From assembly GCF_900176565.1 (NCBI RefSeq), contig NZ_FXEH01000006.1:496001-560000 (forward strand): a stretch of DNA of 64,000 nucleotides, written 5' to 3'. The stretch's first letter is position 1; every line of letters starts with the position of its first letter. Below are positions 9,731 through 48,385 of this stretch, in pieces. The stretch comes from Thalassobacillus devorans (GTDB lineage: Bacteria > Bacillota > Bacilli > Bacillales > Halobacillaceae). Position numbers and translations under genes: made by a program. The notes under the pieces are model-generated. The model was given only the letters and a program-made list of their open reading frames with translations. It was not told the origin of the DNA and did no database searches.

Positions 9731-10026
9731 GGACAGGTTGTTGTAAGAAAAGGATAACTGTGTCCTCAAAGGTGGGCAATAAGGACAGGTTTGCGCTCGA
9801 GAAGGGAAAAGTTGTCCGAAGAGGATACTAATTAGGACAGGTTTGCGGTCGAATAGGGAAAAGTTGTCCGAAGAGGATGCCGATAAGGACAGGTTTACGC
9901 TCGAGAAGGGAAAAGTTGTCCGAAAAGGATGCCAATAAGGACAGGTTTACTCTGTCAAAAGAAAAAGTTGTACAGAAACAAGGTTAATTAGGACAGGTAG
10001 AGTTGGAAAATAGCCAATTGCTGTCC
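9731..10026 (+). repeat. Family B 52-bp tandem array 1 (6 units)
   Basis: Units start at GGACAGG 9731, 9783, 9835, 9887, 9939 and 9991, an exact period of 52. Each has GGACAGGTT on the left, AAAGTTGTCC (or a variant) about 35 nt later, then a spacer of about 17 nt. The first unit (GTTGTTGTAAGAAAAGG) and the last (AAAATAGCCAATTGCTGTCC) differ from the inner ones. Confidence 0.9.
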
Positions 10027-10160
10027 AATAAATGTTTTATAATGATGGTGCCATTTTTGTTTGAGATAAGATGGAAAAAAGAAGGAGTATGCAAGCAGCT
10101 GGTCGAATATAAATTCCGAGGGGATACATACAAGAATGAAATTTTTGAAGGAGGAAACAA

Positions 10161-10556
10161 ATGGGGAGAATCATTCATTTCGAAATTCATGTTGATGACA
10201 TGGAGCGGGCGAAGGGGTTTTATGGTGAGGTCTTTGGATGGAGGTTTGAAGACTGGAGTGAGTTTGCCGGGATGCCTTATTTCGGGGCTGTAACTGGCGA
10301 TGAAAAAGAGCCGGGAATTAACGGGGCTTTGATGCAACGGCAAAGTGCTCCTCCGGAAGTGAACCAGGCTGTCAATGGTTATGCGTGTACGATGGGCGTG
10401 GAAGATTACGACTCTATTGAAGCTAAAATTCTCGAGCAGGGAGGCAAGGTGGCCATGCCAAAATCTGCACTGCCTGGAATGGCATGGCAGGGATATTATA
10501 TCGATACCGAAGGAAATATTTTCGGCGTTCACCAGCCTGATGAAAACGCCAAATAG
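10161..10556 (+). CDS. VOC family protein (glyoxalase/bleomycin-resistance fold)
   Basis: The 131-residue protein is a single vicinal-oxygen-chelate domain. It has paired beta-alpha-beta modules: IIHFEIHVDDMERAKGFYGEVFGW at the N-terminus and an equivalent second module ending in GYYIDTEGNIFGVHQP. The His in HFEIH and the late Glu-like position are the usual metal ligands. The substrate is not predictable. ATG 10161 follows GAAGGAGGAAACAA. A hairpin terminator follows at 10563. Confidence 0.85.
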   Translation: MGRIIHFEIHVDDMERAKGFYGEVFGWRFEDWSEFAGMPYFGAVTGDEKEPGINGALMQRQSAPPEVNQAVNGYACTMGVEDYDSIEAKILEQGGKVAMPKSALPGMAWQGYYIDTEGNIFGVHQPDENAK

Positions 10557-10562
10557 AACCTA

Positions 10563-10590
10563 AGAACCCTTATACCACAGGGTTCTTTTT
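10563..10590 (+). terminator. Rho-independent terminator
   Basis: AGAACCCT and AGGGTTCT arms are followed by five T, directly after the VOC gene. Confidence 0.8.
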
Positions 10591-10620
10591 ATGAGTGATA
10601 ACTAACACAGGAGGGATACT

Positions 10621-11244
10621 TTGCTTAGACTCTACATAACAAGACACGGGGAAACAGAATGGAACGTACAAAAACGAATGCAAGGCTGGGCGAACTCTGA
10701 ACTGACGGATAATGGAGTGGAAAATGCAAGGATATTAGGGGAAAATCTCAAGTCTACCGCATTCGATGCCGTCTATTCCAGCCCCAGTAAGCGAACAAGA
10801 AAGACGACAGAACTGATTCTTGGAGGCCGCGAGCTTCCAGTTACCTATGAGGATAAGCTGAAAGAGATCCATGTCGGGGACTGGGAAGGTCAGACGAAAG
10901 AATTTATTGAAGAGAATTACGGCGATGCCTACCATTATTTTTTTAACAAGCCCCATCTCTATGAATCTTTCAATGGCGAAAGCTTCTTTGAATTACGGGA
11001 AAGAGTAGAAGAGTTTCTGGAGCAATTGAAGCGCACCCATTCATCTGGAAATATCCTGGTTGTCACACACTCGGTGTTTATTAAAAGTTTATTGGCAGTA
11101 GTGAAAGGACTTCCGGTAGAAAAGCTTTGGGGACCGCCGTATATCCAGGATACAAGTTTGAGTATCGTAGAAATGGATGGGGAAGCGTATCACGTGATTG
11201 TAGAAGGCGATGTCTCCCATAAGAAAAATACACTAGAAGCATAA
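10621..11244 (+). CDS. Histidine phosphatase family protein (phosphoglycerate mutase-like)
   Basis: The 207-residue protein carries the RHGETEWN motif at residues 8-15, where the histidine accepts the phosphate. It also has SSPSKRTRKTTEL, a conserved EIHVGDWEGQ, and the second catalytic histidine in VVTHS. This is the fold of GpmB, PhoE and CobC-type phosphatases. The exact substrate is open; broad-specificity phosphatase is the safest call. The start is TTG 10621 behind AGGAGGGATACT. A GNAT gene follows after 68 bp. Confidence 0.85.
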   Translation: MLRLYITRHGETEWNVQKRMQGWANSELTDNGVENARILGENLKSTAFDAVYSSPSKRTRKTTELILGGRELPVTYEDKLKEIHVGDWEGQTKEFIEENYGDAYHYFFNKPHLYESFNGESFFELRERVEEFLEQLKRTHSSGNILVVTHSVFIKSLLAVVKGLPVEKLWGPPYIQDTSLSIVEMDGEAYHVIVEGDVSHKKNTLEA

Positions 11245-11312
11245 TGGTAAAGTAATTGAGTATTTTTCGAAAGTTTGTAATAATAATGTTTAAATTTATG
11301 GGGGGGATGGAA

Positions 11313-11759
11313 ATGATTTATCGTGCTAGTATGGAAGATTTAGAAGGAGTAGCAAGGTTGTTTCAAGCATATCGTGAATTTTATCAACAGGAGTCAGACT
11401 TAGAAGTAGCAAAAAGATACATAAAAGAACGGTTGCAAAACAATGACTCTGTAATTTTTGTAGCCAAGAGTGAAGACATGTTAATAGGATTTGTTCAATT
11501 ATATCCTACATTTTCATCTGTTTCTGTTAGTAAAGCTTGGATCTTAAATGATCTGTATGTAGATAGAGCAGCTAGAAATCGAGGGATAGGTGCTGTGCTT
11601 TTGGATAAGGCAAAGGGCTACGCAATGGACACTGGAGCTAATAGTATTAGTTTGAGCACCGCACCCGATAACTTTAATGCTCAAAGATTATATGAAAAAC
11701 ATGGATACCAACTAGATACACAATTCTTACACTATGAATTAAATTTAGACAAGATTTGA
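11313..11759 (+). CDS. GNAT-family N-acetyltransferase
   Basis: The start is ATG 11313, behind GGGGGGG at 11300; upstream in-frame codons give a poor N-terminus. The product of about 148 residues begins MIYRASMEDLEGVARLF. The acetyl-CoA-binding motif A is LYVDRAARNRGIGAVLLDKA (R/Q-x-x-G-x-G/A form RNRGIG), and motif B follows as FNAQRLYEKHGY. GNAT proteins transfer acetyl to amines; the acceptor is unknown. Confidence 0.85.
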   Translation: MIYRASMEDLEGVARLFQAYREFYQQESDLEVAKRYIKERLQNNDSVIFVAKSEDMLIGFVQLYPTFSSVSVSKAWILNDLYVDRAARNRGIGAVLLDKAKGYAMDTGANSISLSTAPDNFNAQRLYEKHGYQLDTQFLHYELNLDKI

Positions 11760-11817
11760 GCTATAAAGCTGTAAAAGTTTTTTATAGATAGGGAGTTTAA
11801 GTTATTTTCTTAATTAT

Positions 11818-11838
11818 CGCATGCTGGGTTCAGGCACC
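11818..11838 (+). repeat. Family A half copy (copy 7)
   Basis: Only the right arm, GCATGCTGGGTTCAGGCACC, followed by a T-run, is left. The left arm is absent, so the hairpin cannot form. Confidence 0.6.
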
Positions 11839-11867
11839 ATTTTTTAAATAAGTTTTCATGCCGAACG

Positions 11868-11896
11868 TTGACACCCCTTCCTGGTCATGCTAGTAT
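11868..11896 (+). promoter_or_regulatory. Promoter of the metE leader
   Basis: TTGACA at 11868-11873 and TAGTAT at 11891-11896 are separated by 17 bp. Transcription would start a few bases before the SAM riboswitch. Confidence 0.75.
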
Positions 11897-11917
11897 GCTT
11901 GTAATCCATAGGAAAAA

Positions 11918-12031
11918 TCTCTTATTAAGAGTGGTGGAGGGACTGGCCCGATGAAGCCCGGCAACCATCCTGCCTATTGATGCGGGTACGGTGCTACTTC
12001 CAGCAAAGCAACCGCTTTGGGAAATGAGAGA
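11918..12031 (+). ncRNA. SAM (S-box, SAM-I) riboswitch
   Basis: The conserved S-box pieces are present in order: CTCTTATTAAGAGTGGTGGA, GGGACTGGCCCGATGAAGCC, CGGCAACC, then CAGCAAAGCAACC and a closing GAAATGAGAG that pairs with the 5' end. A terminator follows. SAM binding should stop transcription of metE. Confidence 0.95.
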
Positions 12032-12043
12032 GGTACGTGTCTG

Positions 12044-12068
12044 AACCTCTCTGATCGAGAGGTTTTTT
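12044..12068 (+). terminator. Terminator of the SAM riboswitch
   Basis: AACCTCTC and GAGAGGTT arms are followed by a T-run. It is the expression platform of the first riboswitch. Confidence 0.9.
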
Positions 12069-12104
12069 CATGTAGTGGATCAAGCTAATTGAATATTGTG
12101 TATC

Positions 12105-12290
12105 TTCAGGTGCTGTGTAAACTTATAAATGCTTATTCAGCTTAAAAGGGAAGTCCGGTGAAAATCCGGCACGGTCCCGCCACTGTAAATGGGAGCACCC
12201 TGCATCATGTCACTATCTTTGTAAAAAGGTGGGAAGGCGCAGAGGTGTGAAGATCATGAGTCAGGAGACCTGCCTGTCGATCGTACACTT
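12105..12290 (+). ncRNA. Cobalamin (B12) riboswitch
   Basis: The aptamer begins near TCAGGTGCTGTGTAAACTT, carries AAAATCCGGCACGGTCCCGC and CACTGTAAATGGGAGC in its middle, and ends with the B12 box AGTCAGGAGACCTGCC at 12259-12274. It lies directly after the SAM riboswitch terminator and before metE, so B12 would switch off the B12-independent enzyme. Confidence 0.95.
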
Positions 12291-12376
12291 AAACCTACGA
12301 GGAATAGGGAGGTGTTAGGCGCATAACGGGATCAGTCTGTCTTTGTTGACTGAAAATGGAACATGCTTACTTAACT

Positions 12377-12404
12377 ATCTCTCTTGTATAAGAGGGATTT
12401 TTTT
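12377..12404 (+). terminator. Terminator of the cobalamin riboswitch
   Basis: ATCTCTCTT and AAGAGGGAT arms are followed by seven T, about 30 bp before the metE ribosome binding site. Confidence 0.85.
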
Positions 12405-12436
12405 AATGGAATGAAAAAGTATCGGGAGGAATGGAG

Positions 12437-14737
12437 ATGACAAACGTAATAAGTTCGACAATCGGTTATCCAAGAATCGGTGAAAAAAGAGAATGGAAGA
12501 GGGCTCTCGAAAGTTTTTGGAAAGTTAAGATGGATAAAGAGGAATTTTTGTCCGAAATGAAAAAATACCGTCTCCATGCACTGAAGAAACAGAAAGAGCT
12601 GGGAGTAGATTTGATTCCAGTCGGTGATTTCAGTTTTTATGACCAGGTGCTCGATACAGCGGTTATGTTCGGATTTATCCCTGAGCGATTCCGGGATGGA
12701 GACGACCTTTTGAGCACGTATTTCGATATCGCCCGAGGCAATGATGAAGCGGTGGCGTCAGAGATGACAAAGTGGTTCAATACCAATTATCACTATATCG
12801 TACCTGAAATCGAAGCGGATGCAGTACCAGAATTGACGGAAAACCGGGCGCTCTTTTATTTCAATGAAGCGAAAGACGAACTCGGAATTACCGGGAAACC
12901 AGTCCTGCTTGGTCCGGTCACTTTTCTACATTTGGCGAAGGGGTTTGAGAAAAAAGATATTGACCAGCTTTTAGAAAAACTGGTGCCGCTTTATATACAA
13001 GTACTTCAGGAGTTAGAAGGTGCTGGTGCGGAATGGGTGCAGATCGAAGAGCCTATGTTGACTGGAGCAATTAAGGATATTGACCTTGCACGTTTCAACC
13101 GAGTATATGGAAAACTCCAACAGGAAGTTCCAGGTGTGAAAGTTCTACTGCAAACCTATTTCGAAGCCGTTGACCATTACGAGGCAGTCGTCTCCCTGCC
13201 GGTTGCAGGTGTCGGACTGGATTTCGTACATGATGATGGGGTTAATTTGGCTGCGGTGAAGCAGTACGGTTTCCCTGAAGATAAAACGCTGGCAGCCGGG
13301 GTTATTGACGGCCGGAATATTTGGCGGGAAGATTTAGGTGAAAAATTGACCCAGCTGGAGCGCCTGTTAGAAGTAGTTGACAAAGACCGTCTGATCATCC
13401 AGCAGTCCTGCAGCTTGCTGCACGTGCCAGTGACGGTGGATACGGAAGATGAATTGGATCCTTTGTTGAAAAATGCGCTGGCCTTTGCTGACCAGAAACT
13501 AGAGGAAGCTGCCATTTTGACAAAAGGAATCAATCAGGGAGAATCTACGATAAAGGATAAAATCATCGCACAGAAGCAAAATCGCGAAGCATTATGGAAT
13601 TCTGCTGCCAGAAACCGCCATGATGTCCGAAAAGAAGTGGAAAGTTGGGAGGGAGTAACACCTGAACGGTCTATGGCATATGCCTCCCGTCAGCAGGTTC
13701 AGCAACAATTTCTCAAGCTGCCGTTATTACCTACGACGACAATCGGCAGCCTGCCGCAAACAGCTGATATCAAACAGGGACGTCAAAATAGGCGGAGAGG
13801 AAAATGGTCGGATTCGGAATACCAGGCATTTATTGAAGAAAATATAGCGGAGTGGATTAGCAGACAAGAGGAAATCGGTCTGGATGTCCTGATCCATGGG
13901 GAATTCGAGCGCAATGACATGGTTGAATTTTTCGGTGAGAAGCTGGAAGGGTTCGCGTTTACACGATTCGCTTGGGTGCAGTCCTATGGCTCGCGCTGTG
14001 TAAAGCCACCGATTATTTTCGGTGACGTGGCTTTGACAGAGCCGATGACCGTGAAGGAAATCGCCTATGCCCAATCACTGACGGAAAAGCCGGTAAAAGG
14101 AATGCTAACAGGGCCAATTACGATTCTGAACTGGTCATTTGTTCATGAAGGCATCAGCAACTTTGATGTTACGAAGCAAATCGCCCTCGCGTTGCAAAAG
14201 GAAATCAAGTACCTGGAGGATGAAGGGATTCAGATGGTCCAGGTAGATGAACCTGCATTGCGTGAAGGCTTGCCGCTTAAACCGGAAAAGCAGGAACAGT
14301 ATTTACGTGACGCTGTCTACGCCTTCAAACTCGCCACTTCTTCCGTGAAAGATGAAACACAGATCCACACCCATATGTGTTACTCTGAATTTGGAGAGAT
14401 CATGGAGACGATCGATCAATTGGATGCGGATGTCATTTCGATTGAAGCTGCCCGAAGCCACGGTGAAATTATTTCTGATTTTGAGAAAAACTCCTACGAA
14501 AAAGGGATAGGGCTTGGCGTCTATGATATTCACAGCCCACGGGTACCAGCCGTGGAAGAGATGGAAAGGAATATTCTTCGCGCACTGAAGGTTCTCGAAC
14601 CCCGTCAATTCTGGGTTAACCCAGACTGCGGGTTGAAAACAAGAAGGGTAGAGGAAACCACTGCAGCTCTGACCAATATGGTGGAGGCGGCTCGAAGGAT
14701 ACGAGAGAAAGTGCCACAAAATTCAACTATATCTTAG
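12437..14737 (+). CDS. metE: Cobalamin-independent methionine synthase
   Basis: The 766-residue enzyme transfers the methyl group of 5-methyltetrahydropteroyl-triglutamate to homocysteine. The N-terminus has the IGYPRIGEKREWKRALE block. The C-terminal catalytic half has TTTIGSLPQT, a zinc site with HTHMCYSEFGEI (His and Cys) and NPDCGLKTR (Cys). ATG 12437 is six bases after GGGAGGA; ATG 12431 overlaps that site. Length is normal. Expression is under the SAM and cobalamin riboswitches in series, so it should be on only when both methionine-derived SAM and B12 are scarce. Confidence 0.97.
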   Translation: MTNVISSTIGYPRIGEKREWKRALESFWKVKMDKEEFLSEMKKYRLHALKKQKELGVDLIPVGDFSFYDQVLDTAVMFGFIPERFRDGDDLLSTYFDIARGNDEAVASEMTKWFNTNYHYIVPEIEADAVPELTENRALFYFNEAKDELGITGKPVLLGPVTFLHLAKGFEKKDIDQLLEKLVPLYIQVLQELEGAGAEWVQIEEPMLTGAIKDIDLARFNRVYGKLQQEVPGVKVLLQTYFEAVDHYEAVVSLPVAGVGLDFVHDDGVNLAAVKQYGFPEDKTLAAGVIDGRNIWREDLGEKLTQLERLLEVVDKDRLIIQQSCSLLHVPVTVDTEDELDPLLKNALAFADQKLEEAAILTKGINQGESTIKDKIIAQKQNREALWNSAARNRHDVRKEVESWEGVTPERSMAYASRQQVQQQFLKLPLLPTTTIGSLPQTADIKQGRQNRRRGKWSDSEYQAFIEENIAEWISRQEEIGLDVLIHGEFERNDMVEFFGEKLEGFAFTRFAWVQSYGSRCVKPPIIFGDVALTEPMTVKEIAYAQSLTEKPVKGMLTGPITILNWSFVHEGISNFDVTKQIALALQKEIKYLEDEGIQMVQVDEPALREGLPLKPEKQEQYLRDAVYAFKLATSSVKDETQIHTHMCYSEFGEIMETIDQLDADVISIEAARSHGEIISDFEKNSYEKGIGLGVYDIHSPRVPAVEEMERNILRALKVLEPRQFWVNPDCGLKTRRVEETTAALTNMVEAARRIREKVPQNSTIS

Positions 14738-14839
14738 ATAACCGGGAATCCCCGTGCTGAATCTGATTAAGTACTGGCCATCCATTTCCCTAATGCTTTC
14801 ATCCGGCGGGGAATAAGGCTGATCACCTTCATAATAACG

Positions 14840-14890
14840 GCGCCTGCCCCCACTGCGCTAATCATCTAGCATGCTTGGGAATCAGGCACC
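14840..14890 (+). repeat. Family A hairpin repeat, copy 8
   Basis: GCGCCTGCCCCCACTGCG and a CTTGGGAATCAGGCACC arm flank CTAATCATCTAGCATG. The joining TTTTTATGCTTAAA leads into array 2, as at copy 6. Confidence 0.8.
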
Positions 14891-14904
14891 TTTTTATGCT
14901 TAAA

Positions 14905-15043
14905 GGACAGGTTGATGTAAGAAAAGAACCACTGTGTCTTCAAAGGATACTAATAAGGGCAGGTTTGCGCTCGTAAAGGGAAAAGTTGTCCAGAAACAAG
15001 GTTGATTAGGACAGGCTGAGAGGAAAATAGCCAATTGCTGTCC
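14905..15043 (+). repeat. Family B 52-bp tandem array 2 (3 units)
   Basis: Units start at 14905, 14957 and 15009 (period 52). The first unit (GTTGATGTAAGAAAAG) and the last (AAAATAGCCAATTGCTGTCC) match the first and last units of array 1. Confidence 0.9.
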
Positions 15044-15132
15044 AATAATTAATTGAAAAAGTCAGATAACGGTATAGACGAATAAATAAAAATAATGTAT
15101 GGTATAAATTAAATCATTCCAAAATTTAATAG

Positions 15133-15237
15133 GTGCATTCACTAGGGGAGCCTTTCTTTTAAGGCTGAGATCAAAGTATAACTTTGGAACTCTTTGAACC
15201 TGAACTGGCTAAAAATCCAGCGGAGGAAAGTGTATTC
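15133..15237 (+). ncRNA. TPP riboswitch 1
   Basis: The thi-box is present: TCACTAGGGGAGCC, GGCTGAGA, GAACCTGAACTGG and CCAGCGGAGGAAAGTG. A terminator hairpin follows at 15263. Confidence 0.95.
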
Positions 15238-15262
15238 ATGAAATATTTCATCTATGATAGGT

Positions 15263-15299
15263 CATGCCACTTTTCTTTTCTGGAAAGTGGCATTTTTTA
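15263..15299 (+). terminator. Terminator of TPP riboswitch 1
   Basis: ATGCCACTTT and AAAGTGGCAT arms are followed by a T-run. Confidence 0.9.
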
Positions 15300-15382
15300 T
15301 GTTAAGAGAGTGCTGCTATAAGACTGACTCTTTGAGTGGCAGATTCTAACTTCCATTCAACAGATAACAATTGAATAAGAAT

Positions 15383-15475
15383 ACTTCACTAGGGGAGCCA
15401 TGAATTGGCTGAGAGAAGCTTGAAGCTTTGACCCTTATAACCTGATCTAGATCATACTAGCGGAGGGAAGTGAAG
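15383..15475 (+). ncRNA. TPP riboswitch 2
   Basis: A second complete thi-box: TTCACTAGGGGAGCC, GGCTGAGAGAAG, a TATAACCTGATCTAGAT stretch and AGCGGAGGGAAGTGAA. It lies 84 bp after the first terminator. Confidence 0.95.
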
Positions 15476-15511
15476 CGGGTGAAATCTTTCTTTAATATAT
15501 TCAAAAATAAT

Positions 15512-15550
15512 AGCTCGCTCCTTCGCATGAAGGGGCGGGCTATTTTATTT
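15512..15550 (+). terminator. Terminator of TPP riboswitch 2
   Basis: AGCTCGCTCCTT and AAGGGGCGGGCT arms are followed by ATTTTATTTT, before the ylmB start. Confidence 0.85.
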
Positions 15551-15624
15551 TACTTTTAAAGGCTTTCGACATAAGAACTTTGTCGATAAGCCAAGTTTGT
15601 CTAATGGAAAGGAGCGGATGGTTC

Positions 15625-21862: not shown

Positions 21863-21979
21863 GAAAGTATAATAAGTAGGGCCAAATTTTGATGTGGTTA
21901 CATGAATAGTTTTACGGTAAGTTTATAAACGCTTTTTAATTAGAATCTGATGATTCCTGCACCTGTAAATGCGAATAAC

Positions 21980-22032
21980 GGAGCCTGAACCCCTATGAGG
22001 TAATGCATTAGCATGCTGGGGATCGGGCTCCG
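21980..22032 (+). repeat. Family A hairpin repeat, copy 9
   Basis: CGGAGCCTGAACCCC and a TGGGGATCGGGCTCCG arm flank AATGCATTAGCAT. A T-run follows, so it likely terminates purT. Confidence 0.8.
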
Positions 22033-22188
22033 TTTTTAATTTATTTTTCGAGTAGTTTTAATCCATATTAGGGCAGATTAATAGAAGAATTGAATTCGAG
22101 ATAATGCAGTATTTGAAAATATTTAGTAATGTTTTAGTATTGAATATGGACTTGAGGCATTTTCTAATAAAAGTATGGGGGAACTCTA

Positions 22189-23121: not shown

Positions 23122-23141
23122 TAACGTTTCATCACAAATGA

Positions 23142-23193
23142 TGGTGCCTGACCCACTGCTGTAATGCTTTAGCATACTGGGGGTCAGGCACCA
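23142..23193 (+). repeat. Family A hairpin repeat, copy 10
   Basis: TGGTGCCTGACCCAC and a GGGGGTCAGGCACCA arm flank TAATGCTTTAGCATAC. The short piece GGCACCATTTAA repeats just after it. Confidence 0.85.
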
Positions 23194-23315
23194 TTTAAAG
23201 GCACCATTTAATATAACAACATTGAGGACGGCGGTTTGATTAAAAAGTTAAAGGAATAGCTGCAAATTTTATTACATAAGTATGGGGAGGAGATGTTTAA
23301 AGAGGAGGGGGCATC

Positions 23316-25679: not shown

Positions 25680-25818
25680 GGACAGGTTGTTGTAAGAAAA
25701 GCACACCTGTGTCTTCAAAGGTGTCTAATAAGGACAGGGTTGCCCTGTCGAAAGAAAAAGTTGTCCAGAAACAAGGTTAATAAGGACAGGTTTTGTTAAA
25801 AAAGAACAAGATTAGTCC
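25680..25818 (+). repeat. Family B 52-bp tandem array 3 (3 units)
   Basis: Units start at 25680, 25732 and 25784. The first unit repeats GTTGTTGTAAGAAAAG from array 1. The last unit is a different end type (GTTTTGTTAAAAAAGAACAA). Confidence 0.85.
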
Positions 25819-26006
25819 ATAACCTTACTTATGGAGCGTGGTGTTACTCGGGCTAATCCAGTAAAACCCCAAGACGTCCAAACAGACAGGAGAATTCCAA
25901 TGATGATAGTAGCGAATGTCTATTCTCTTAAGATGGTTGTAGAGAGTTGAGTGGATCACCTATCGGAGAATTTATAAATAATTATAATTGTTAAAGGAAG
26001 TTTTTA

Positions 26007-31905: not shown

Positions 31906-32044
31906 GGACAAGTTAGCACTGTGAAGAGGAAGAGTTGTCCTTTAAGGAGTTCCAAAAGGACAAGTTAGCACCGTCAAGGGGAAAAGTTGTCCTCAAAGCA
32001 GGCAAATAAAGACAGGTTTTGATGAAAAAGAATGAGAGCTGTAG
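31906..32044 (+). repeat. Family B 52-bp tandem array 4 (3 units)
   Basis: Units start at 31906 (GGACAAGTTAGC), 31958 and 32010 (AGACAGGTT). The spacing is again 52. The last unit (GTTTTGATGAAAAAGAA) resembles the last unit of array 3. No family A hairpin is adjacent. Confidence 0.8.
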
Positions 32045-32069
32045 CAAAATTATAAAGGAGGTCATCACC

Positions 32070-36422: not shown

Positions 36423-36682
36423 GGACAGGTTAGCCTCGGCGAGGGAAAAAGTTGTCCTTAAAGCAGGCGAATAAGGACAGGTTAGTCCCGGTGAAGGAAA
36501 AAGCTGTTCTTAAAGCAGTTGAATAAGGACGGGTTAGCCTCGGCGAGGGAAAAAGTTGTCCTTAAAGCAGGCGAATAAGGACAGGTTAGCCCCGGCGAGG
36601 GAAAAAGTTGTCCTTAAAGCAGGCGAATAAGGACAGGTTAGTTCCGGTGAAGGAAAAAGCTGTCCTTAAAGTAGGCGAATAA
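36423..36682 (+). repeat. Family B 52-bp tandem array 5 (5 units)
   Basis: Units start at 36423, 36475, 36527, 36579 and 36631, period 52. Inner units are nearly identical, with GGACAGGTTAGCC, GGGAAAAAGTTGTCC and TTAAAGCAGGCGAATAA. Confidence 0.92.
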
Positions 36683-40086: not shown

Positions 40087-40089
40087 GCT

Positions 40090-41634: not shown

Positions 41635-42891
41635 ATGGAAAAACCTGCAACAGCACTCTCACCAGCGAACAAGTTCGAGCCGTGGCGGATGTTGCTGTGG
41701 CTATTGATGGCACAGATCATGGTCGCGTTCATCGGCCGCAGCCTCGGACCGCTTGGTGTATTGATTGAAGAAGATCTTTCCTTAACAAAAGCACAAGTCG
41801 GACTGCTGCCGTCTGCCCTTTTTCTCGGGCAGGCGGTTGCCTCTATTCCGACCGGTTTCTTGGCGGACCGCTTCGGTTCCCGGCCATTACTGATGGTAAT
41901 GTCGGTGACACTCGGTGTCAGTTTTTTATTGATGACACTGCAGCATAACTATGTCCTGGTATTGCTGTTAATTGTCATTGGCGGGATCGGCTATGGCGGG
42001 ATGCATCCGACGACCAATCGCGGGATCGTATATTGGCATGAACAAAAACAGCGAGGTACCGCGATGGGTATCAAGCAGATGGGAATCACGTTCGGTTCGG
42101 CATTGGCTGCGATTTTACTGTTGCCGCTTGCCGAGACGCATGGCTGGAGAGTTGTCGTCTTGCTTGCCTGTATCGGGCTGATTGTGACGGGAGTAATTGC
42201 TTACTTTTTATACAGTGACCCCGAGCAGGAGAAGGATTACAACCGGGTAAAGGGGGCGCCAGGCAGTACGTTTAAATCGATTGCCGCAATGGCAAAAAAC
42301 AAAGCATTGTTGTTGATCAGTCTGTGTGCGATGGGCATCAATGGCTCGCAAATGGCATTAAATACATATCTTGTTCTGTTTGCCTATGAACAGCTTGGCA
42401 TCAATCTTGTGTTAGCCGGATTATTGCTGGTTGTTTCTGAGGTTGGCGGCTCGTTTGGACGGATCGGCTGGGGCGTTATCAGTGACCGTGTCTTTGGTGG
42501 GGAGCGGCTGAAAGTGATGGCGATTATTGTGACGATTACACTGGTAGCCAGCGCAGTCGTGGCCTTTTTACCGTCGGGAACGCCGTATGGTCTGCTCGTC
42601 CCGCTGTTTTTTGTATTCGGATTTGCGGTATCCGGTTTCAATGGCATCTGGATGAACCTGGCGTCAGAGCTGGTGCCGAAAGAGCAGGCCGGCTTATCGA
42701 GCGGCTTCAGCATTACGCTCGGCTCCATGGGGGTCATTTTTCTGCCGCCATTGTTCGGACTCGTTGTTGACCAGACACAAGGGTATATGTTCGGCTGGCT
42801 GTTGATTTCCTTCTTGATGATTGTCGTCATGTTTTTATTAACGTTATTGAATAAGTTGAAAAAAGAGCAGGAAAGGAGCTATGGACAGTGA
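41635..42891 (+). CDS. MFS transporter
   Basis: The 418-residue protein has 12 membrane segments and the MFS loop motif GFLADRFGSRPLL between helices 2 and 3. It reads GRSLGPLGVLIEEDLSLTKAQ near the N-terminus, similar to organic-acid and nitrate-type MFS carriers. It is the second carrier in the operon and may handle a related acid or export a product. ATG 41635 follows AAAAGAGATGACATACT. Its end overlaps the next gene by 4 bp, showing coupled translation. Confidence 0.85.
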   Translation: MEKPATALSPANKFEPWRMLLWLLMAQIMVAFIGRSLGPLGVLIEEDLSLTKAQVGLLPSALFLGQAVASIPTGFLADRFGSRPLLMVMSVTLGVSFLLMTLQHNYVLVLLLIVIGGIGYGGMHPTTNRGIVYWHEQKQRGTAMGIKQMGITFGSALAAILLLPLAETHGWRVVVLLACIGLIVTGVIAYFLYSDPEQEKDYNRVKGAPGSTFKSIAAMAKNKALLLISLCAMGINGSQMALNTYLVLFAYEQLGINLVLAGLLLVVSEVGGSFGRIGWGVISDRVFGGERLKVMAIIVTITLVASAVVAFLPSGTPYGLLVPLFFVFGFAVSGFNGIWMNLASELVPKEQAGLSSGFSITLGSMGVIFLPPLFGLVVDQTQGYMFGWLLISFLMIVVMFLLTLLNKLKKEQERSYGQ

Positions 42892-43496
42892 AATTCAATC
42901 CATCAGAACTAGAAACGAACCAAGTATATAAACTACTGTCGGGGTCAGTCGTGCCGCGTCCGATCGCCTGGGTGTCGACGATTTCAAACGATGGCATCCT
43001 GAACCTGGCCCCTTACAGCTTTTTTACCGTTGCTTCACGGAAACCGCCAATGCTTTGTATCTCGGTGGGTCCAGGTGTAGGGGAGCGTGTGGGAACGGTC
43101 AAAGATACACTGACCAACACTCGTGATAATGGTGAATTCGTGATCAATATAGCGACGACTCCGTTAGGGAATGAACTGCAAAAGACAGCGGAGCATGTCC
43201 CGGCTGAAATTGATGAATTCGCCGAAGCGGGACTGACTGCGGTTGAGAGTGAACTCGTGAAGCCGAGGCGCGTGAAGGAAGCACCGATTCAAATGGAGTG
43301 CCGGCTGCACCAGATCGTCCCACTTGGCAGTGATCATCTAGTGATTGGCGAGTTGGTCATGTATCACATTAAGGAAGAGTTTTATCAGGAAGCCTATAAA
43401 GTGAACCTGGAACAGCTGCGTCCCCTCGGCCGGCTTGCGAATCAGTTCAGCGAAAGCAAGGACTTTTTCACATTGCCGAAAGAGGATCTGGAATAG
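42888..43496 (+). CDS. Flavin reductase family protein (FMN-binding split barrel)
   Basis: The 202-residue protein begins KFNPSELETNQVYKLLSG. It carries PRPIAWVSTISNDGILNLAP and the YSFFTVASRKPPMLCISV block, the FMN-binding core of this family. Such proteins reduce FMN or act with monooxygenases. No monooxygenase is in the operon, so the role is unclear. The start is GTG 42888, overlapping the MFS stop. It is the last gene of the operon. Confidence 0.85.
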   Translation: MKFNPSELETNQVYKLLSGSVVPRPIAWVSTISNDGILNLAPYSFFTVASRKPPMLCISVGPGVGERVGTVKDTLTNTRDNGEFVINIATTPLGNELQKTAEHVPAEIDEFAEAGLTAVESELVKPRRVKEAPIQMECRLHQIVPLGSDHLVIGELVMYHIKEEFYQEAYKVNLEQLRPLGRLANQFSESKDFFTLPKEDLE

Positions 43497-43506
43497 ACCC
43501 GCTATG

Positions 43507-43890
43507 CTAGGAAGGAAAGTGGTTTTCTTTTATATTCCTTATGATTTTTGCAATCAAACGGACCACCAATTTTCCTATTAAGAGGACAATTCCTGTGAAA
43601 ATTACTACTGAATCCTGAGTCAAGGGTTTAAACCAGGTCACATTAGGTGGAGTGATCCATTCTTTTCCCAGCAATACCGACACCATGATAGTTACGAGAT
43701 TTACGGCCATGATATAACGGAGTTTGACCTTTACAGACAACAAACCGACCACAATCACGAATAAAATTGTGCCAGGAAACAGGAAAGGAGCTTCTCCTCC
43801 ATTTATGTATTGAGTGGTTTCGTAGTAATGAAATAAAAACGGTAGTGGCACTAAAGAAAGCAACAGCCATATTAACTTGATGATGAACAC
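43507..43890 (-). CDS. Hypothetical membrane protein
   Basis: The 127-residue product has four hydrophobic segments: residues about 2-18, 37-53, 59-75 and 94-114. It ends in a basic tail (KIIRNIKENHFPS). No family was recognised. It converges on the flavin reductase gene with only 10 bp between them and no clear terminator. The minus-strand ribosome binding site is AGGAGGTG before 43890. Confidence 0.55.
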   Translation of the reverse strand: MFIIKLIWLLLSLVPLPFLFHYYETTQYINGGEAPFLFPGTILFVIVVGLLSVKVKLRYIMAVNLVTIMVSVLLGKEWITPPNVTWFKPLTQDSVVIFTGIVLLIGKLVVRLIAKIIRNIKENHFPS

Positions 43891-43981
43891 CTCCTTTTTA
43901 CTTGATATAAATTATAAATGTTCATGGTACCACATAAAAATGCCTAACACCCACTCTGTTATCGAAAAGACGTGCCTAAGA

Positions 43982-44320
43982 GGAGAGGTTGTTGTTAAAA
44001 AAGCGCGAGCGTGTCCTCAATGATGACTTATAAGGACAGGTTAGCCTTGTCCAAGCAAAAAGTTGTCCGAAATGGGGGCAAATAAGGACAGGTTAGCGCC
44101 GGTAAAGGAAAAAGTTGTCCGAATAGGGGGCAAATAAGGACAGGTTAGCCCGGGAAAAGGCAAAAGTTGTCCAAAAGAGGGTAAATAAGGACAGGTTAGC
44201 CCGGGAAGAAGCAAAAGTTGTCCAAAAAGAGGGTAAATAAGGACAGGTTAGTCCCTGGAAAAGCAAAATTTGTCCTTAAAGAAGGCTAATAATGCCAGGT
44301 TAGCTCTGGCAAAGCAAGCA
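43982..44320 (+). repeat. Family B 52-bp tandem array 6 (7 units)
   Basis: Units start at 43982, 44034, 44086, 44138, 44189, 44241 and 44293. All steps are 52 except one of 51. The first unit (GTTGTTGTTAAAAAAG) is the shared leader type. Inner units carry GGGAAAAGGCAAAAGTTGTC or a close variant. Confidence 0.92.
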
Positions 44321-44324
44321 ATAC

Positions 44325-44360
44325 CTGCCCCATTGAGAGAATATTTACTTTTATGGGGCA
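44325..44360 (+). repeat. Family A hairpin repeat, copy 16 (short)
   Basis: CCTGCCCCAT and ATGGGGCA arms flank TGAGAGAATATTTACTTTT, followed by six T. It lies directly after array 6. Confidence 0.65.
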
Positions 44361-44439
44361 TTTTTTATGAGAGGAACTAGAGGAGTATCGTCGGGGGTGT
44401 AGAAATTAATAAACGAACTATTTATTAAGGAGGAACCTG

Positions 44440-44814
44440 ATGATTAATCAACTCGGACAAGTGATGGTGTATGTCAATGATCAGGATAAGGCAGTCAGTT
44501 TCAGGACGGAGAAAATTGGGTTTCGGGTGATTGCGGATGAAAGTAATGGGGACATGAGGTGGATTGAGATGGCGCCAGCAGAAGGCGCGGGGTCAAGCAT
44601 TGTTCTTCATGATAAACAATTGATTGCAAAAATGTATCCTGACATGAATCTCGACACGCCGTCTTTAATGTTTTTTTCGGATAACCTCGATCAGTTACAT
44701 AAGGACTTATCCGGTAAAAATATGACGGTCGGGGAAATTGTTGAGATGCCTTCTGGAAGCGTGTTTAATTTTGCCGACGAGGAAGAGAATTATTTTGCTG
44801 TGATGGAAAAGTGA
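44440..44814 (+). CDS. VOC family protein
   Basis: The 124-residue single-domain protein reads QLGQVMVYVNDQDKAVSF, then KIGFRVIADES, with RWIEMAPAEGAG and FNFADEEENYFAV at the end. This is a glyoxalase-fold extradiol/bleomycin-type family, with the late FxD.E...F block typical of YdhE-like VOC proteins of Bacilli. Metal ligands are only partly clear. ATG 44440 follows AAGGAGGAACCTG. A terminator at 44831 closes the unit. Confidence 0.8.
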   Translation: MINQLGQVMVYVNDQDKAVSFRTEKIGFRVIADESNGDMRWIEMAPAEGAGSSIVLHDKQLIAKMYPDMNLDTPSLMFFSDNLDQLHKDLSGKNMTVGEIVEMPSGSVFNFADEEENYFAVMEK

Positions 44815-44830
44815 AGAGGATGAAGAGGTA

Positions 44831-44869
44831 AGAGTCTGGCAGGCATTGGTGTTAGTCAGACTCTTTTTT
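44831..44869. terminator. Terminator between converging genes
   Basis: AGAGTCTG and CAGACTCT arms are followed by six T. It ends the VOC gene and faces the minus-strand membrane protein. Confidence 0.8.
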
Positions 44870-45140
44870 ATTGAAAATAAATGGTTGCCCACACCATTCC
44901 TCCTATAATGAAGGTGGTTATAAGCGTAGCCTTGCCAATCCACAACAGCCGATGGTTATCATCCGATCGCCGATGGAGCAAAGCGATATAGTCGGCGATT
45001 ATCCAAGTCGCCAGTGAAAACAAGACGATTCCTAAAACAGGAAAGGAGTCTTGTACATGAAGTTCAACAAAAGCATAGATAGCAAGTATTGCAAATGAAA
45101 AGTTTCCCAGAATGGTATAAATTAGTAACTTTTTATCCAA
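44868..45140 (-). CDS. Small membrane protein
   Basis: The 90-residue protein has three hydrophobic segments: LLIYTILGNFSFAILAIYAF, FPVLGIVLFSLATWIIADYI and TLITTFIIGGMVWATIYF. A charged HRRSDDNHR loop lies before the last one. No family was recognised. The start ATG at 45140 follows AGGCGAGTACC on the minus strand. Confidence 0.55.
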   Translation of the reverse strand: MDKKLLIYTILGNFSFAILAIYAFVELHVQDSFPVLGIVLFSLATWIIADYIALLHRRSDDNHRLLWIGKATLITTFIIGGMVWATIYFQ

Positions 45141-45318
45141 TGGTACTCGCCTCCACCGTTCATCATAGATTAATAAAGTATGTGGTGTTATGTAACAATA
45201 GTATAATTATGGCAAAAAATCCCTACTGTGACAATTAAGAATGGGAAAAAGTTGAAACGATTTAGTGAGTGGTTCGTAGAATGTATAACAGCAGAAACGG
45301 TTGGGAGATGATCTAGGG

Positions 45319-45516
45319 ATGTGGGACCGGTGGGAAGAAAAGAAGAAAAAGACGAGGAGAGCGCGGAAGAAGAAAGGTGATTATACGTTTTGGGATGGTT
45401 TCTTCGATCTTTTATTCTGGGTGCCTGAGTTATTGATTTTACCGCTCCGTCTGATTTTCTTTCTTTTCCGAGGCGTCGGAAAGCTGTTTAAGGATGCGTT
45501 TGATTTTATTCCGTGA
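45319..45516 (+). CDS. Small basic membrane-associated protein
   Basis: The product of about 65 residues begins MWDRWEEKKKKTRRARKKK, a very basic head. It continues with the hydrophobic FFDLLFWVPELLILPLRLIF and FLFRGVGKLF stretches. ATG 45319 is placed after GGGAGATGATC; TTG 45301 is an alternative. No family was recognised. It opens a run of three closely spaced small genes, probably one operon. Confidence 0.5.
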   Translation: MWDRWEEKKKKTRRARKKKGDYTFWDGFFDLLFWVPELLILPLRLIFFLFRGVGKLFKDAFDFIP

Positions 45517-45535
45517 AATGGGGGGGTGGTTTTGA

Positions 45536-45820
45536 ATGGTATTTGCCGTCCCAATTGGAGTGATTTTGGCAACTGTGTTCTTTGCTCACTTTTTGAGTGC
45601 TGGAAAGTCCGTGAAACGTAAATATGTCGTGTGGGGTACGACGGTATTATTCGTCATCGCACCCTTTTTGTCATTCCTTATTGGTATCATTTTTGCGAAC
45701 ATCGTAGGAGACGGGTTCGCCGGAGGAATGATGATGGCAGTATGTTTTGCGGTTATTTTTTTGATCGGGCTGGTCGTACTGTTGATGGGTATTGTTAAGA
45801 AGCAGGTAAGAAGCGAGTAA
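45536..45820 (+). CDS. Small membrane protein
   Basis: The 94-residue protein has three hydrophobic segments: VPIGVILATVFFAHFLSAG, VWGTTVLFVIAPFLSFLIG and the stretch around AVCFAVIFLIGLVVLLMGIV. Short basic KSVKRK and KKQVRSE pieces are present. It starts 20 bp after the previous gene, behind GGGGGGGTGG. No family was recognised. Confidence 0.55.
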   Translation: MVFAVPIGVILATVFFAHFLSAGKSVKRKYVVWGTTVLFVIAPFLSFLIGIIFANIVGDGFAGGMMMAVCFAVIFLIGLVVLLMGIVKKQVRSE

Positions 45821-45838
45821 ATATTGGAGGGACTATCG

Positions 45839-46126
45839 ATGATGTGGATAGCTTTAGGTATCGCTGCAGCAGGATTTTTTATTGGAGAAGGGCTGAAGAA
45901 TTTCAAAGAGCCTGATGGGAAAAGTCTGCTGGATGCGTTTGAAGATGAGGATCGGGCACATGAACTGATTCCTGAAAAAGATGTACATAATTTTATGGGG
46001 ATTTCTAAGAAGGATGCCAATGCTTTAAGACAAGAACATCCTGATATTCCGCACCTTTCAATTAATGGGAATGTTTACTTTCCAAAAGAAAAGCTGCGGG
46101 AGTGGCTGTTGAACTTAGCAAAATGA
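45839..46126 (+). CDS. Membrane-anchored protein with excisionase-like helix-turn-helix
   Basis: The start is ATG 45839 behind TTGGAGGGAC. The product of about 95 residues has one N-terminal membrane segment (MWIALGIAAAGFFIGEGL). A linker follows, then a C-terminal HTH-17/MerR-like domain: EKDVHNFMGISKKDANALRQ followed by PHLSINGNVYFPKEKLREWL. An excisionase-type domain on a membrane anchor is unusual. The arrangement suggests a structural or sensing role rather than recombination, but that is inference. Confidence 0.6.
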   Translation: MMWIALGIAAAGFFIGEGLKNFKEPDGKSLLDAFEDEDRAHELIPEKDVHNFMGISKKDANALRQEHPDIPHLSINGNVYFPKEKLREWLLNLAK

Positions 46127-46209
46127 GGGGGTTTTTAGAGTGGTAGGGGAACTTTCCAGGTGAGTGCCGTAAGTAGGAGTTAGCGAGATAACTGCAAGGA
46201 GGAATAGCG

Positions 46210-46587
46210 TTGTCATTAAAAGCAGGGGATACGATCACCTTCGAACGGACATTTACAAAAGAAGACGTGGAGTTATTTACGAATATTTCCGGGGATGAGG
46301 GCGTGCATCATTTAACCCCGGATGAGCAGGGGAGGCTTGTCGTGCAAGGATTACTTACGGCCACCCTTCCGACGAAAATCGGTGGAGATTATAACGTCCT
46401 CGCCCGGACGATGAACTTCGAGTTTATGAGGCCGGTATTTACCGGGGACACCATCGTTTGTGAAGCGACCATTGACAACTTTGAAAAGACAGAGAACAAT
46501 CGAACAGAGATTATGGCTTCCTTTTCCTGTACCAATCAAAAGGAAAAGGAAGTGCTGAAAGGGAATTTTGCTGGAGTTATTCTATAA
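46210..46587 (+). CDS. MaoC-like hotdog-fold dehydratase
   Basis: The 125-residue protein starts at TTG 46210 after AAGGAGGAATAGCG. It begins SLKAGDTITFERTFTKEDVE and continues with LFTNISGDEGVHHLTPDEQG, close to the MaoC hydratase motif, where Asp and His act on enoyl-CoA. Here the usual DxNPxH is changed to DEGVHH, so catalytic activity is uncertain. No fatty-acid genes are adjacent. Confidence 0.75.
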   Translation: MSLKAGDTITFERTFTKEDVELFTNISGDEGVHHLTPDEQGRLVVQGLLTATLPTKIGGDYNVLARTMNFEFMRPVFTGDTIVCEATIDNFEKTENNRTEIMASFSCTNQKEKEVLKGNFAGVIL

Positions 46588-46703
46588 AAAATATTATGGT
46601 TTGTTTTAGGTGGGGAGGTCTAAGCCCACAAATTTAGCCTGGAGTGATTGTGTTATTCTTGTGGTATAATATGAATAAATACTACTTATGTGGTGGTGGA
46701 TTC

Positions 46704-46955
46704 ATGAAAAAACTTGAAGGTAATGAGGCAAAATTATTCAAAGAAATTATTCAGGAAGATGAAATGATCGTTGAGGTTGATGGGAAAAATTATTATTTAT
46801 CGGTAATTGAAACCTCAGAAACAACAGTTAAAGAAGATGTGGAAATAGATCCTCATTTAAAGCAAAAGTTGCTACAAGCCAAAAAGGATATTATGGACGA
46901 AAATATATATTCAACTGAAGAAGTATTGGAATTGATTGATCAAGGTAAAGTTTAA
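46704..46955 (+). CDS. Antitoxin of a type II toxin-antitoxin pair
   Basis: The protein of about 83 residues starts at ATG 46704 with GGTGGTGG in front. It begins MKKLEGNEAKLFKEIIQED, has a short beta part (GKNYYLSVIE) and an acidic helical C-terminus (ILQAKKDIMDEN-like, EEVLELIDQGKV). Its stop codon touches the start of the toxin gene, as expected for a coupled antitoxin. An extended -10 (TGGTATAAT) lies at 46662-46670. The DNA-binding fold is not clear. Confidence 0.7.
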   Translation: MKKLEGNEAKLFKEIIQEDEMIVEVDGKNYYLSVIETSETTVKEDVEIDPHLKQKLLQAKKDIMDENIYSTEEVLELIDQGKV

Positions 46956-47234
46956 ATGGAAATAAAGTGGACAAAACAAGCTTTCCAGGCTTTTCAAAAT
47001 ATTAAAAGTAACCGTTTCACTTTGCAAGAGACTAAAGAATACAAAAAGAGATTAGTGAAAAAGATAGATAAAAAGATTCCTTTACTAGGCACAAGTATTC
47101 CAGTGCAAGACCACCATGGATGGGAAGGTAGCTATAAAGTAATTATCGATAACTTTGTAGTGTACTATTCTTTTTCACCTGACAAAAAGACATGCTATAT
47201 AGAATATTTTAAGCATTTTAGACAAGAAAAATAG
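46956..47234 (+). CDS. RelE/ParE-family toxin
   Basis: The 92-residue protein reads EIKWTKQAFQAFQNIKSN at the N-terminus and ends YKVIIDNFVVYYSF, CYIEYFKHFRQEK. This is the RelE/ParE toxin fold, with helices first and a beta-sheet carrying late basic or aromatic residues. RelE types cut mRNA in the ribosome and ParE types act on gyrase; the sequence does not decide which. It starts right after the antitoxin stop. A terminator follows at 47255. Confidence 0.8.
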   Translation: MEIKWTKQAFQAFQNIKSNRFTLQETKEYKKRLVKKIDKKIPLLGTSIPVQDHHGWEGSYKVIIDNFVVYYSFSPDKKTCYIEYFKHFRQEK

Positions 47235-47254
47235 CTTCACATAAGAATCAAAAG

Positions 47255-47296
47255 AAATGGTTTGCCCTTCCTAAACGGCTGGGGCAGACCATTTTT
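47255..47296. terminator. Terminator between converging genes
   Basis: AAATGGTTTGCCC and GGGGCAGACCATTT arms are followed by T on the plus strand. Confidence 0.8.
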
Positions 47297-47297
47297 A

Positions 47298-47606
47298 TTA
47301 TCGATCTCTTGATTGCAACAAAAATAGAAATGCAATCAGTGATGCAGGAATGTTATCTCGTTTTTTCCATTCTACTAAGTATCCGGGCATACGTTCGAAG
47401 CGATCGACCGCTTCTGTGGGAATGGCTCCCCGCTTGATGATCGCCCATGTTGCGCCATCCTGATCAGTAATGGTGAAATGGCCGATGACGGCATCACCCT
47501 CGGCGCTCCAGCGCCACTGGTCGTGCTCGATGTATTGTGTGATTTGCTTCCCTTTATTTTTCGTATCTTTCGTATAGGCCACGTAGTGCCCCTGCCTGTT
47601 CTGCAC
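47298..47606 (-). CDS. Hypothetical protein
   Basis: The protein of about 102 residues reads MQNRQGHYVAYTKDTKNKG from GTG 47606. Strands rich in Trp and charged residues follow (QWRWSAEGDAVIGHF, TWAIIKRGAIP). No family was recognised. The frame stays open further upstream into the end of the next minus-strand gene, so the real start may lie earlier. It is probably co-transcribed with the membrane protein at 47639-48112. Confidence 0.5.
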   Translation of the reverse strand: MQNRQGHYVAYTKDTKNKGKQITQYIEHDQWRWSAEGDAVIGHFTITDQDGATWAIIKRGAIPTEAVDRFERMPGYLVEWKKRDNIPASLIAFLFLLQSRDR

Positions 47607-47638
47607 GTAACCCCGCCACGAGAACCCACCTTTCTTTT

Positions 47639-48112
47639 CTACTTTATATAACAGGCTTCCGTTTTATCTTTTAATAGGAAATCAGCTGAACGCACGGTAT
47701 CAAACGACATAATAGCGGTGATACTTGTCAGAATTTTTTGTTTGAGGCCGACTTCTTCCTGAATTTCCCCATAAAGCTCGCCATCCATAGCAAATAAACC
47801 CGCCTGATAGGATTTCATCGGCTTTTGTCCGAGGTACATCCGGGCAGGAACGCATTCGTACGTGGCATTTGAGTCATCGGTTTCGAAATCGACTTCTGTC
47901 TGCTTGGCTTTTTGCCAGTCCAGATAGCCGGTCCGCAACAAACCGAGCCCGCTTATCGTAAAGATGGCGCTATACACGAGAGAAATAAGTATTCCGCTTG
48001 GGTTCATGGTAATGAAGCCGATGATAAAGATAAGAGCAATAAAAGATAAAGCAGCGCCTGTAATCAGTTGGCGCCTGGCGTCTTGAAAAATGAGTTCTTT
48101 TACTTGAGTCAT
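47639..48112 (-). CDS. Hypothetical membrane protein
   Basis: The 157-residue protein has two or three hydrophobic segments in its first half: LITGAALSFIALIFIIGFIT, then LISLVYSAIFTISGLGLL. A soluble C-terminal half contains ARMYLGQKPMKSYQAGLF. No family was recognised. The start ATG at 48112 follows AAGGAGGTAGATC on the minus strand. Only about 30 bp separate it from the next minus-strand gene. Confidence 0.55.
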   Translation of the reverse strand: MTQVKELIFQDARRQLITGAALSFIALIFIIGFITMNPSGILISLVYSAIFTISGLGLLRTGYLDWQKAKQTEVDFETDDSNATYECVPARMYLGQKPMKSYQAGLFAMDGELYGEIQEEVGLKQKILTSITAIMSFDTVRSADFLLKDKTEACYIK

Positions 48113-48193
48113 CCGATCTACCTCCTTACATAAGGTACGTTTGAAATTGGAAAAAGTTTCACTATCTATTGATGGAGGTGGATCTCATGATTC

Positions 48194-48385
48194 GGACAGG
48201 AAGAGGGCGGAAGAGCGTGAAGTTGTTCGAATTGGGGTGGTGTTCGGACAGGAAGAGGGGGAAAGAGCGTGAAGTTGTCCGAATTGGGGTGGTGTTTGGA
48301 CAGGAAGAGGGGAAAAGAGCGAGAAGTTGTCCGAAAAGGGGCGGTATTCGGACAGTATGAAGGAGAAAGAGCAGGAAGCTGTCCG
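48194..48385 (+). repeat. Family B 52-bp tandem array 7 (4 diverged units)
   Basis: Units start at 48194, 48246, 48298 and 48350, period 52. The unit has changed to GGACAGGAAGAGGGGGAAAG, ending GTGAAGTTGTCCG, but GGACA, TTGTCC and the spacing are kept. It lies in a 550-bp gap before the LPDTA protein. The rest of that gap (48400-48650) shows no recognised element. Confidence 0.88.

Follow-up and report, generated by a model that had tools for sequence, protein, structure and literature searches.

Repeats abound between the genes of bacteria, and for most of them an explanation is lacking. Published accounts describe strong DNA gyrase sites of Escherichia coli as a 130-bp motif with a 10.75-bp G+C period, with cuts over-represented in BIME-2 elements, among them the sucB-sucC intergenic region with several cuts (PMC6379681); a preference of the Bacillus anthracis gyrase for a G+C period of 10-11 bp (PMC12324340); wrapping of ~48 bp by the gyrase pinwheel (PMC12393610); the proposal that RemA wraps AT-rich periodic repeats on a protein ring (PMC8481266); and the stem-loop repeat families Bhal-1 and Bhal-2 of B. 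halodurans (PMC2267715). Here, we describe a family of 52-bp palindromic tandem arrays in a stretch of 64,000 nucleotides of Thalassobacillus devorans (positions 496001-560000 of contig C4 in the 4.07-Mb genome G000; hereafter, the window). Judged by their sequence, the arrays appear to be a variant of the intergenic palindromic repeats of which STAR and BIME elements are the nearest kinds.

Seven arrays of 52-bp units

An earlier note on this stretch had proposed 31 units in seven arrays that step by 52 bp with a single step of 51 bp, each unit carrying GGACA, (A)GTTGTCC about 35 nt further on and a spacer of about 17 nt, with all units pointing one way on the + strand. Aligning the units at 52-bp steps bore this out, a few units being degenerate: the 51-bp step leads from 44138 to 44189, GGACA and GTTGTCC together span 35 nt, the spacer is 17 nt, and every unit in the window has the same direction. 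A better frame for the unit is a 27-bp palindrome (TGTCC...GGACA) followed by a 25-bp linker. All seven arrays are intergenic, and TRF called a period of 52 for four of them (9731, 36423, 43982 and 48194). They are listed below with the strongest period of their A+T content and the number of column shuffles, out of 500, that equalled it unless stated otherwise.

9731..10042, + strand: array of 6 units, the first (9731) and last (9991) divergent; best period 10.4, 10/500 shuffles
14905..15060, + strand: array of 3 units, 5' of tandem thiamine pyrophosphate (TPP) riboswitches; best period 10.4, 17/500 shuffles
25680..25835, + strand: array of 3 units; best period 10.3, weak, 101/500 shuffles
31906..32061, + strand: array of 2 full units and a degenerate third, with divergent open reading frames (ORFs) on either side; period 10.5, 11/500 shuffles (2 full units)
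36423..36682, + strand: array of 5 units with convergent ORFs on either side; best period 13.1, 40/500 shuffles reaching the power near 10.4
43982..44344, + strand: array of 7 units, the first and last degenerate, with one 51-bp step; period 10.4, 0/500 shuffles (5 inner units)
48194..48401, + strand: array of 4 units with a variant consensus (GGACAGGAAGAGGG); best period 10.4, 0/500 shuffles

Geometry is kept more strictly than sequence

Across 122 loci with 131 distinct arrays (80 of the 122 loci having been retrieved by the palindrome pattern itself), we found TGTCC-Nk-GGACA with k=17 in 601 places and no more than 7 times for each remaining k between 3 and 45, while the linker GGACA-Nk-TGTCC had k=25 in 587 cases, k=24 in 30 and k=26 in 24. 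In an enlarged locus set, 776 of 837 unit steps measured 52 bp, the others being 51 bp (35), 53 bp (24) and 50 bp (2); the chaining admitted steps of 50-54 only, so that larger insertions or deletions (indels) split arrays and hence went uncounted. Neighbouring units differed by a mean of 6.96 substitutions. Upon relating substitutions to indels, we obtained 96 substitutions per indel in the arrays compared to 7.2 in intergenic alignments from the same genus that lie outside arrays; in these, 60 of the 106 gap openings had length 1 and 18 had length 2. Hence, the length of the unit is kept far more strictly than its sequence, with a depletion of indels that is about tenfold once larger missed indels are allowed for.

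Within the unit, positions 1-4 and 7-9 and their mirrors changed between neighbours at rates of 0.01-0.06, compared to 0.09-0.26 at the remaining positions, and changes per site amounted to ~0.17 in the linker and ~0.10 in the palindrome. Since the linkers recur within an array at this level of change and are not unique spacers, CRISPR was rejected as a description of the arrays. A detector of structure alone (10-bp stem, 7-nt loop) gave 53 pairs without GGACA at a spacing of 52 in the named loci and no more than 9 at each of the other spacings; most of the 53 were near variants of TGTCC or came from locus L215, and with this detector a spacing of 52 was not prominent in 400 kb of genome G298 (one contig, 4.70 Mb) or in the genus of the window.

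Helical phasing and dyad symmetry

The earlier note's suggestion that 52 bp amounts to five helical turns, with the motifs phased on one face of the DNA, was supported by the A+T period in six of the seven window arrays, by the 10.4-bp harmonic of 85 units and by the depletion of indels. The note's reading of the arrays as a putative protein-binding or DNA-bending site is supported in part. The best A+T period was 10.3-10.5 in these six arrays, and in five of the seven the signal was also stronger than in no fewer than 483 of the 500 column shuffles. Among 85 non-redundant units, the 10.4-bp harmonic, the fifth of 52 bp, carried 10.9% of the A+T power versus 3.8% after shuffling (z=16), and it was the only one of harmonics 1 to 12 to be raised beyond z=1. 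Taken by part, it was raised in the linker alone (z=3.1) and in the inner 17 bp (z=4.7). Native 52-bp windows gave 5.0% in intergenic DNA (n=5,659; arrays z=10) and 4.1% in coding DNA (n=37,551), and mean power reached 9.96 in 14 overlapping 156-bp array windows versus 1.38, with a maximum of 5.55, in 289 intergenic windows. A+T and G+C thus alternate each 10.4 bp, giving five turns per unit.

The 27-bp palindrome covaries between arrays. Stem positions 6-10 were paired in 79, 82, 89, 67 and 52% of the 131 arrays, versus 42, 43, 38, 34 and 29% when arms were swapped between arrays; from position 11 on, pairing showed no excess over swapped arms. Mismatches in 94 oriented arrays comprised 161 G·T and 178 A·C, with 33 arrays richer in G·T and 39 richer in A·C. 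The near equality of the two classes favours a symmetry of double-stranded DNA and gives no sign of a folded transcript.

Orientation, gene context and turnover

The single direction seen in the window is part of a wider pattern, in which orientation is not an even mix and mostly follows replication. Scored by linker composition, after weak margins and weak skew had been dropped, 84 of the 95 scorable arrays (of 131) matched the local G+C skew. As composition is entangled with strand bias, we re-examined orientation by homology: homologous array pairs had the same orientation relative to replication in 109 of 124 cases overall and in 27/27 within G298, the pairs not being mutually independent. 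Agreement held for 43/49 pairs on opposite skew and for 28/30 pairs in which both arrays lay between convergent or divergent genes, and across 27 homology clusters 88 of 99 arrays had the majority orientation.

Arrays occurred in all three types of intergenic gap, as derived from simple ORF calls. Convergent gaps were commoner among gaps with arrays (33/94 versus 168/1,063 without; p=1e-5) and divergent gaps rarer (11/94 versus 239/1,063; p=0.013). More than half of the array was covered by a called ORF (at least 90 aa) in 54 of 173 arrays, these frames being presumed spurious. A Pfam comparison of 20 window ORFs, many of which adjoin arrays, placed 18 in ordinary families of metabolism, transport, regulation or the cell surface and gave no match for the other two. 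The arrays, whose lengths the earlier note had proposed to compare between strains, varied in copy number and presence at two of the window sites: the orthologous site of 36423 in genome G003 has no array, and the array at 48194 is represented by 2 units in genome G002 and by a remnant of ~1 unit in G003.

Occurrence across genomes

Searching G000 with TGTCC-N17-GGACA-N25-TGTCC (at most one mismatch, inner array units being counted on each strand) returned 32 forward and 34 reverse matches, versus 0+0 for the reversed pattern used as control; the spacing is thus not random across the genome. Every match fell within C4:505-622 kb or at C1:1,120 and 1,157 kb, and on C1 the polar unit is inverted relative to the window arrays. 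Exact matches were present in 2/5 genomes of the genus, 2/44 of the family and 11/398 of the class; two of the 11 class genomes have a single match each, maybe by chance, and one other genome had a match to the control. The richest genome found was G139 with 187+190 matches; G298 had 120+114. When named genomes were scanned for pairs of adjoining perfect palindromes, at least 117 stretches came up, and among the 80 matches listed the titles were mostly of Bacillaceae (Mesobacillus, Neobacillus, Cytobacillus, Robertmurraya, Evansella, Ureibacillus, Texcoconibacillus and others), plus Trichococcus; the same pattern had 0 matches in viral contigs. The family of 52-bp arrays recurs patchily in Bacillaceae and Trichococcus. 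Similar units stand at many loci within one genome, and several subfamilies with differing half-sites coexist within one genome.

Four loci (L176, L221, L206 and L211) are titled Chryseobacterium or Sedimentibacter and carry units of the Bacillaceae or Trichococcus type, so the titles or assemblies may be wrong. A second RemA-like gene of G000 (C1:1210189) is 50-90 kb away from the two inverted arrays at C1:1,120-1,157 kb; in two other genomes this gene stands ~4.2 kb from the contig start and is perhaps near oriC.

Arrays with other arms and arrays of about 41 bp

In 400 kb of G298, picked regardless of arrays, TRF reported 20 arrays with a period of at least 25, of which 11 had a period of 52 or a multiple of it within 1. 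In six of these 11 the arms differ from TGTCC/GGACA, those of L296 being close (TGTC...GACA). A different 52-bp array also stands at the place in G002 that is orthologous to the window array at 43982:

L173:15541-15950: 52-bp array, CGGTC-N17-GACCG with a 25-bp linker

It is with such arrays that the finding is at its boldest and least secure. Arrays for which TRF gave a period of 38-46 in these loci had a best A+T period of 10.1-10.6 in 11 of 19 cases (8/10 of those mostly outside ORFs and 3/9 of those inside). The following have a period of ~40-42, often as two halves of 20-21 bp, with an A+T period of 10.1-10.6, and seem to form another phased family, assembled from two-turn halves.

L090:13654, L098:10040, L098:14482, L139:6627 and L210:2224: arrays of period ~40-42
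L210:5973, L212:2980, L295:9952, L296:2901 and L299:7410: further arrays of period ~40-42

A proposed phased dyad array and its rivals

The best reading, to which we give about an even chance, is that the family represents double-stranded, helically phased arrays of dyad sites that bend or wrap around a protein. Each unit makes five turns, with the 27-bp dyad providing two half-sites of ~10 bp around a 7-bp centre, followed by the 25-bp linker, which is usually purine-rich on one strand. Repetition of the unit keeps the dyads on one face of the helix and would be expected to make array DNA easy to bend or wrap; a protein may wrap or dock on it. DNA gyrase is our first candidate, followed by a wrapper of the Lrp/AsnC type or a dimeric protein of another kind. 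Gyrase appears to have the most literature support, and the G+C periodicity of ~10-11 bp over a wrapped stretch that marks gyrase sites is found on the unit average and in six of the seven window arrays. Tandem duplication of units probably lets the arrays lengthen and shorten, as a result of which they differ between related species. Two proteins were rejected as requirements: a RemA match (PF04025) was found in 13/16 genomes but in 0/3 array-bearing Trichococcus, for which three a completeness figure is absent, and the Y1 transposase (Y1_Tnp, PF01797) had no match in G000 and G139 and was present in 18 of 24 genomes, with and without arrays.

Several observations weigh against this reading. 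Among the window arrays, the one at 36423 does not favour phasing, with its best period at 13.1, and that at 25680 is not clearly above its shuffles (101/500). Across all loci, just 5 of 13 other-arm 52-bp arrays had a best A+T period of 10.4-10.6, and the frame of 27+25/26 bp fits 7 of these 13, five of them by eye alone (L103, L173, L215:463, L296 and L306); the automatic dyad scorer gave 27+25 for 2/13, and six do not fit. Gyrase is nearly universal, unlike the arrays, which are patchy (11/398 class genomes, two with a single match), and the bias in orientation is not explained by a symmetric enzyme. In the sucB-sucC BIME-2, tried as a positive control for phasing, the A+T signal peaked at a period of 9.1 and not of 10.4. 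Lastly, wrapping does not need the changing letters of the dyad to covary, so that a second reason is required, such as a dimeric reader, a cruciform or templated correction of the palindrome.

The covariation of the stem would follow directly if the 27-nt palindromes fold as single-strand hairpins on the lagging-strand template, where a hairpin-recognising enzyme, acting as in REP/RAYT-like or attC-like recombination, copies or moves the arrays and so spreads and orients them. An orientation that tracks replication (27/27 pairs in G298, 109/124 overall, 43/49 on opposite skew) and the similar units at many loci per genome agree with this. We nevertheless consider it unlikely, because G000 and G139 lack a match to Y1_Tnp (PF01797), the averaged unit has no conserved tetranucleotide at the foot of the hairpin, and a single-stranded tether would have no need of a linker kept to 25 ±1. 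A comparably small share of our belief goes to a dimeric regulator of the helix-turn-helix type, or a lineage-specific nucleoid protein, that would occupy the TGTCC half-sites without any wrapping. The symmetric conservation of positions 1-4 and 7-9 and their mirrors (0.01-0.06 versus 0.09-0.26 elsewhere) and a linker tolerance of just 1 bp speak for such a protein, whereas the several half-site subfamilies in one genome would call for several readers, and the window genes tested at the array flanks belong to unrelated metabolism, with no apparent regulon.

Neutral tandem duplication, by which functionless arrays owe their periodicity to the common ancestry of their units, would account for arrays that vary or are absent between species of one genus. 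It seems to us improbable in view of the roughly tenfold depletion of indels and of a period of 52 that is common to unlike sequences (11/20 arrays in G298, six with other arms, one of them close). Least probable of all, and in our view very unlikely indeed, is an RNA element, with transcription of the arrays yielding RNA in which the 27-nt hairpins have their effect. The pairing of the stems and the richness of the linkers in purines speak for it, but the purine-rich strand has no excess of G-U over A-C mismatches (161 to 178), arrays stand in all three gap types, and no Rfam family reached its gathering score over the window arrays or in 8 related loci; at E of at most 1, L215:6400-7700 gave two sub-threshold Rfam matches, of which a trpB motif (29.9 of 59 bits, minus strand) lies over the array end.

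Beyond the phased dyad array itself, we tentatively suggest, as a possibility that we rate below even, a superfamily of bacterial intergenic DNA defined by structure, whose geometry would be inherited (a dyad of 27 bp and a linker of 25 bp making five turns, bendability at 10.4 bp and a preferred orientation to the replication fork) and whose letters would be free. Such a satellite-like wrapping platform, serving for gyrase docking or as a spool for a nucleoid protein, would evolve as a shape and not as a string of letters, with a sister family of ~41 bp (four turns, in two-turn halves) in the same genomes. Our estimate takes into account that phasing was found in 5/13 other-arm arrays and in 11/19 arrays of the sister family. 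Arrays that differ in their letters share their spacing, dyad symmetry and helical phase, so that shape itself becomes a hypothesis open to test. Were a topoisomerase or nucleoid protein to use the arrays, they would form fixed sites of wrapping or relaxing on Bacillus-type chromosomes, in excess between converging genes, and their orientation to the fork would become a testable question.

Neighbouring elements in the window

Directly before the array at 9731 stands a leader element, of which a related copy precedes the array at 14905 (14833-14904) and a weaker one that at 25680.

9659..9730, + strand: imperfect long inverted repeat, GGTGCTTGATTCC...GGGGATCAGGCACC

Repeats of this type have the form GGTGCCTGA..CCC...GGG.TCAGGCACC, followed by T-rich sequence, and look like a repeated terminator-like palindrome. 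They also occur at 21974-22036 and ~23141-23195 without an array, and at a further position, 11826; as copies exist without an array (~21974 and ~23141), the leader is probably a separate repeat.

Three RNA elements were also observed. At 11919-12291, an S-adenosylmethionine (SAM) riboswitch is directly followed by a cobalamin riboswitch 5' of a gene for cobalamin-independent methionine synthase (12431); tandems of these two riboswitches are known from Bacillus. A tandem pair of TPP riboswitches lies at 15134-15485, 5' of an M20 peptidase gene (15580). On the minus strand, 3693-3939 matches the BsrG RNA in Rfam (116.7 bits), a toxin/antitoxin RNA.

Comparison with described repeats

The earlier note did not recognise the unit as a described element, and Rfam, the STAR core and a literature search likewise gave no match to a named repeat. 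No family of Rfam 15 reached its gathering score over the window arrays or in 8 related loci, and we recognised no description of 52-bp palindromic arrays in Bacillaceae in the open-access literature, most subscription papers lying outside the search. The STAR core T(G/A/T)TGTTG(G/T)GGCCC(C/A), searched as TGTTGKGGCCC with at most one mismatch, had 0 matches in the window, and a search for STAR pairs gave 0 in 20 genomes that were guessed to be Staphylococcus-like.

STAR elements of Staphylococcus resemble the arrays as intergenic direct repeats with recurring spacers and a copy number that varies by locus and lineage, and they differ in having a GC-rich core of 14 bp whose copies are separated by 40 bp or more, in place of 52-bp units (PMC3532100). 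REP/BIME elements with their RAYT partners are likewise described as clustered, lineage-specific intergenic palindromes, some of them cut by gyrase (PMC12306157, PMC6379681), and the palindromes of the 52-bp arrays also lie in intergenic space if the called frames over 54/173 arrays are set aside as spurious. Compared to them, the 52-bp arrays have a fixed period, units that point one way and no need of a Y1 transposase, and the single BIME-2 region examined had no 10.4-bp period. With the repeats bound by RemA in Bacillus, the arrays share AT-richness, periodicity and a proposed wrapping on a protein ring (PMC8481266), yet 3/3 array-bearing Trichococcus genomes have no RemA match. Strong gyrase sites resemble the arrays in alternating G+C and A+T each ~10 bp over flanks of ~47 bp; the arrays differ from them as 52-bp tandem repeats with dyads and with a period of 10.4 rather than 10.75 (PMC6379681).

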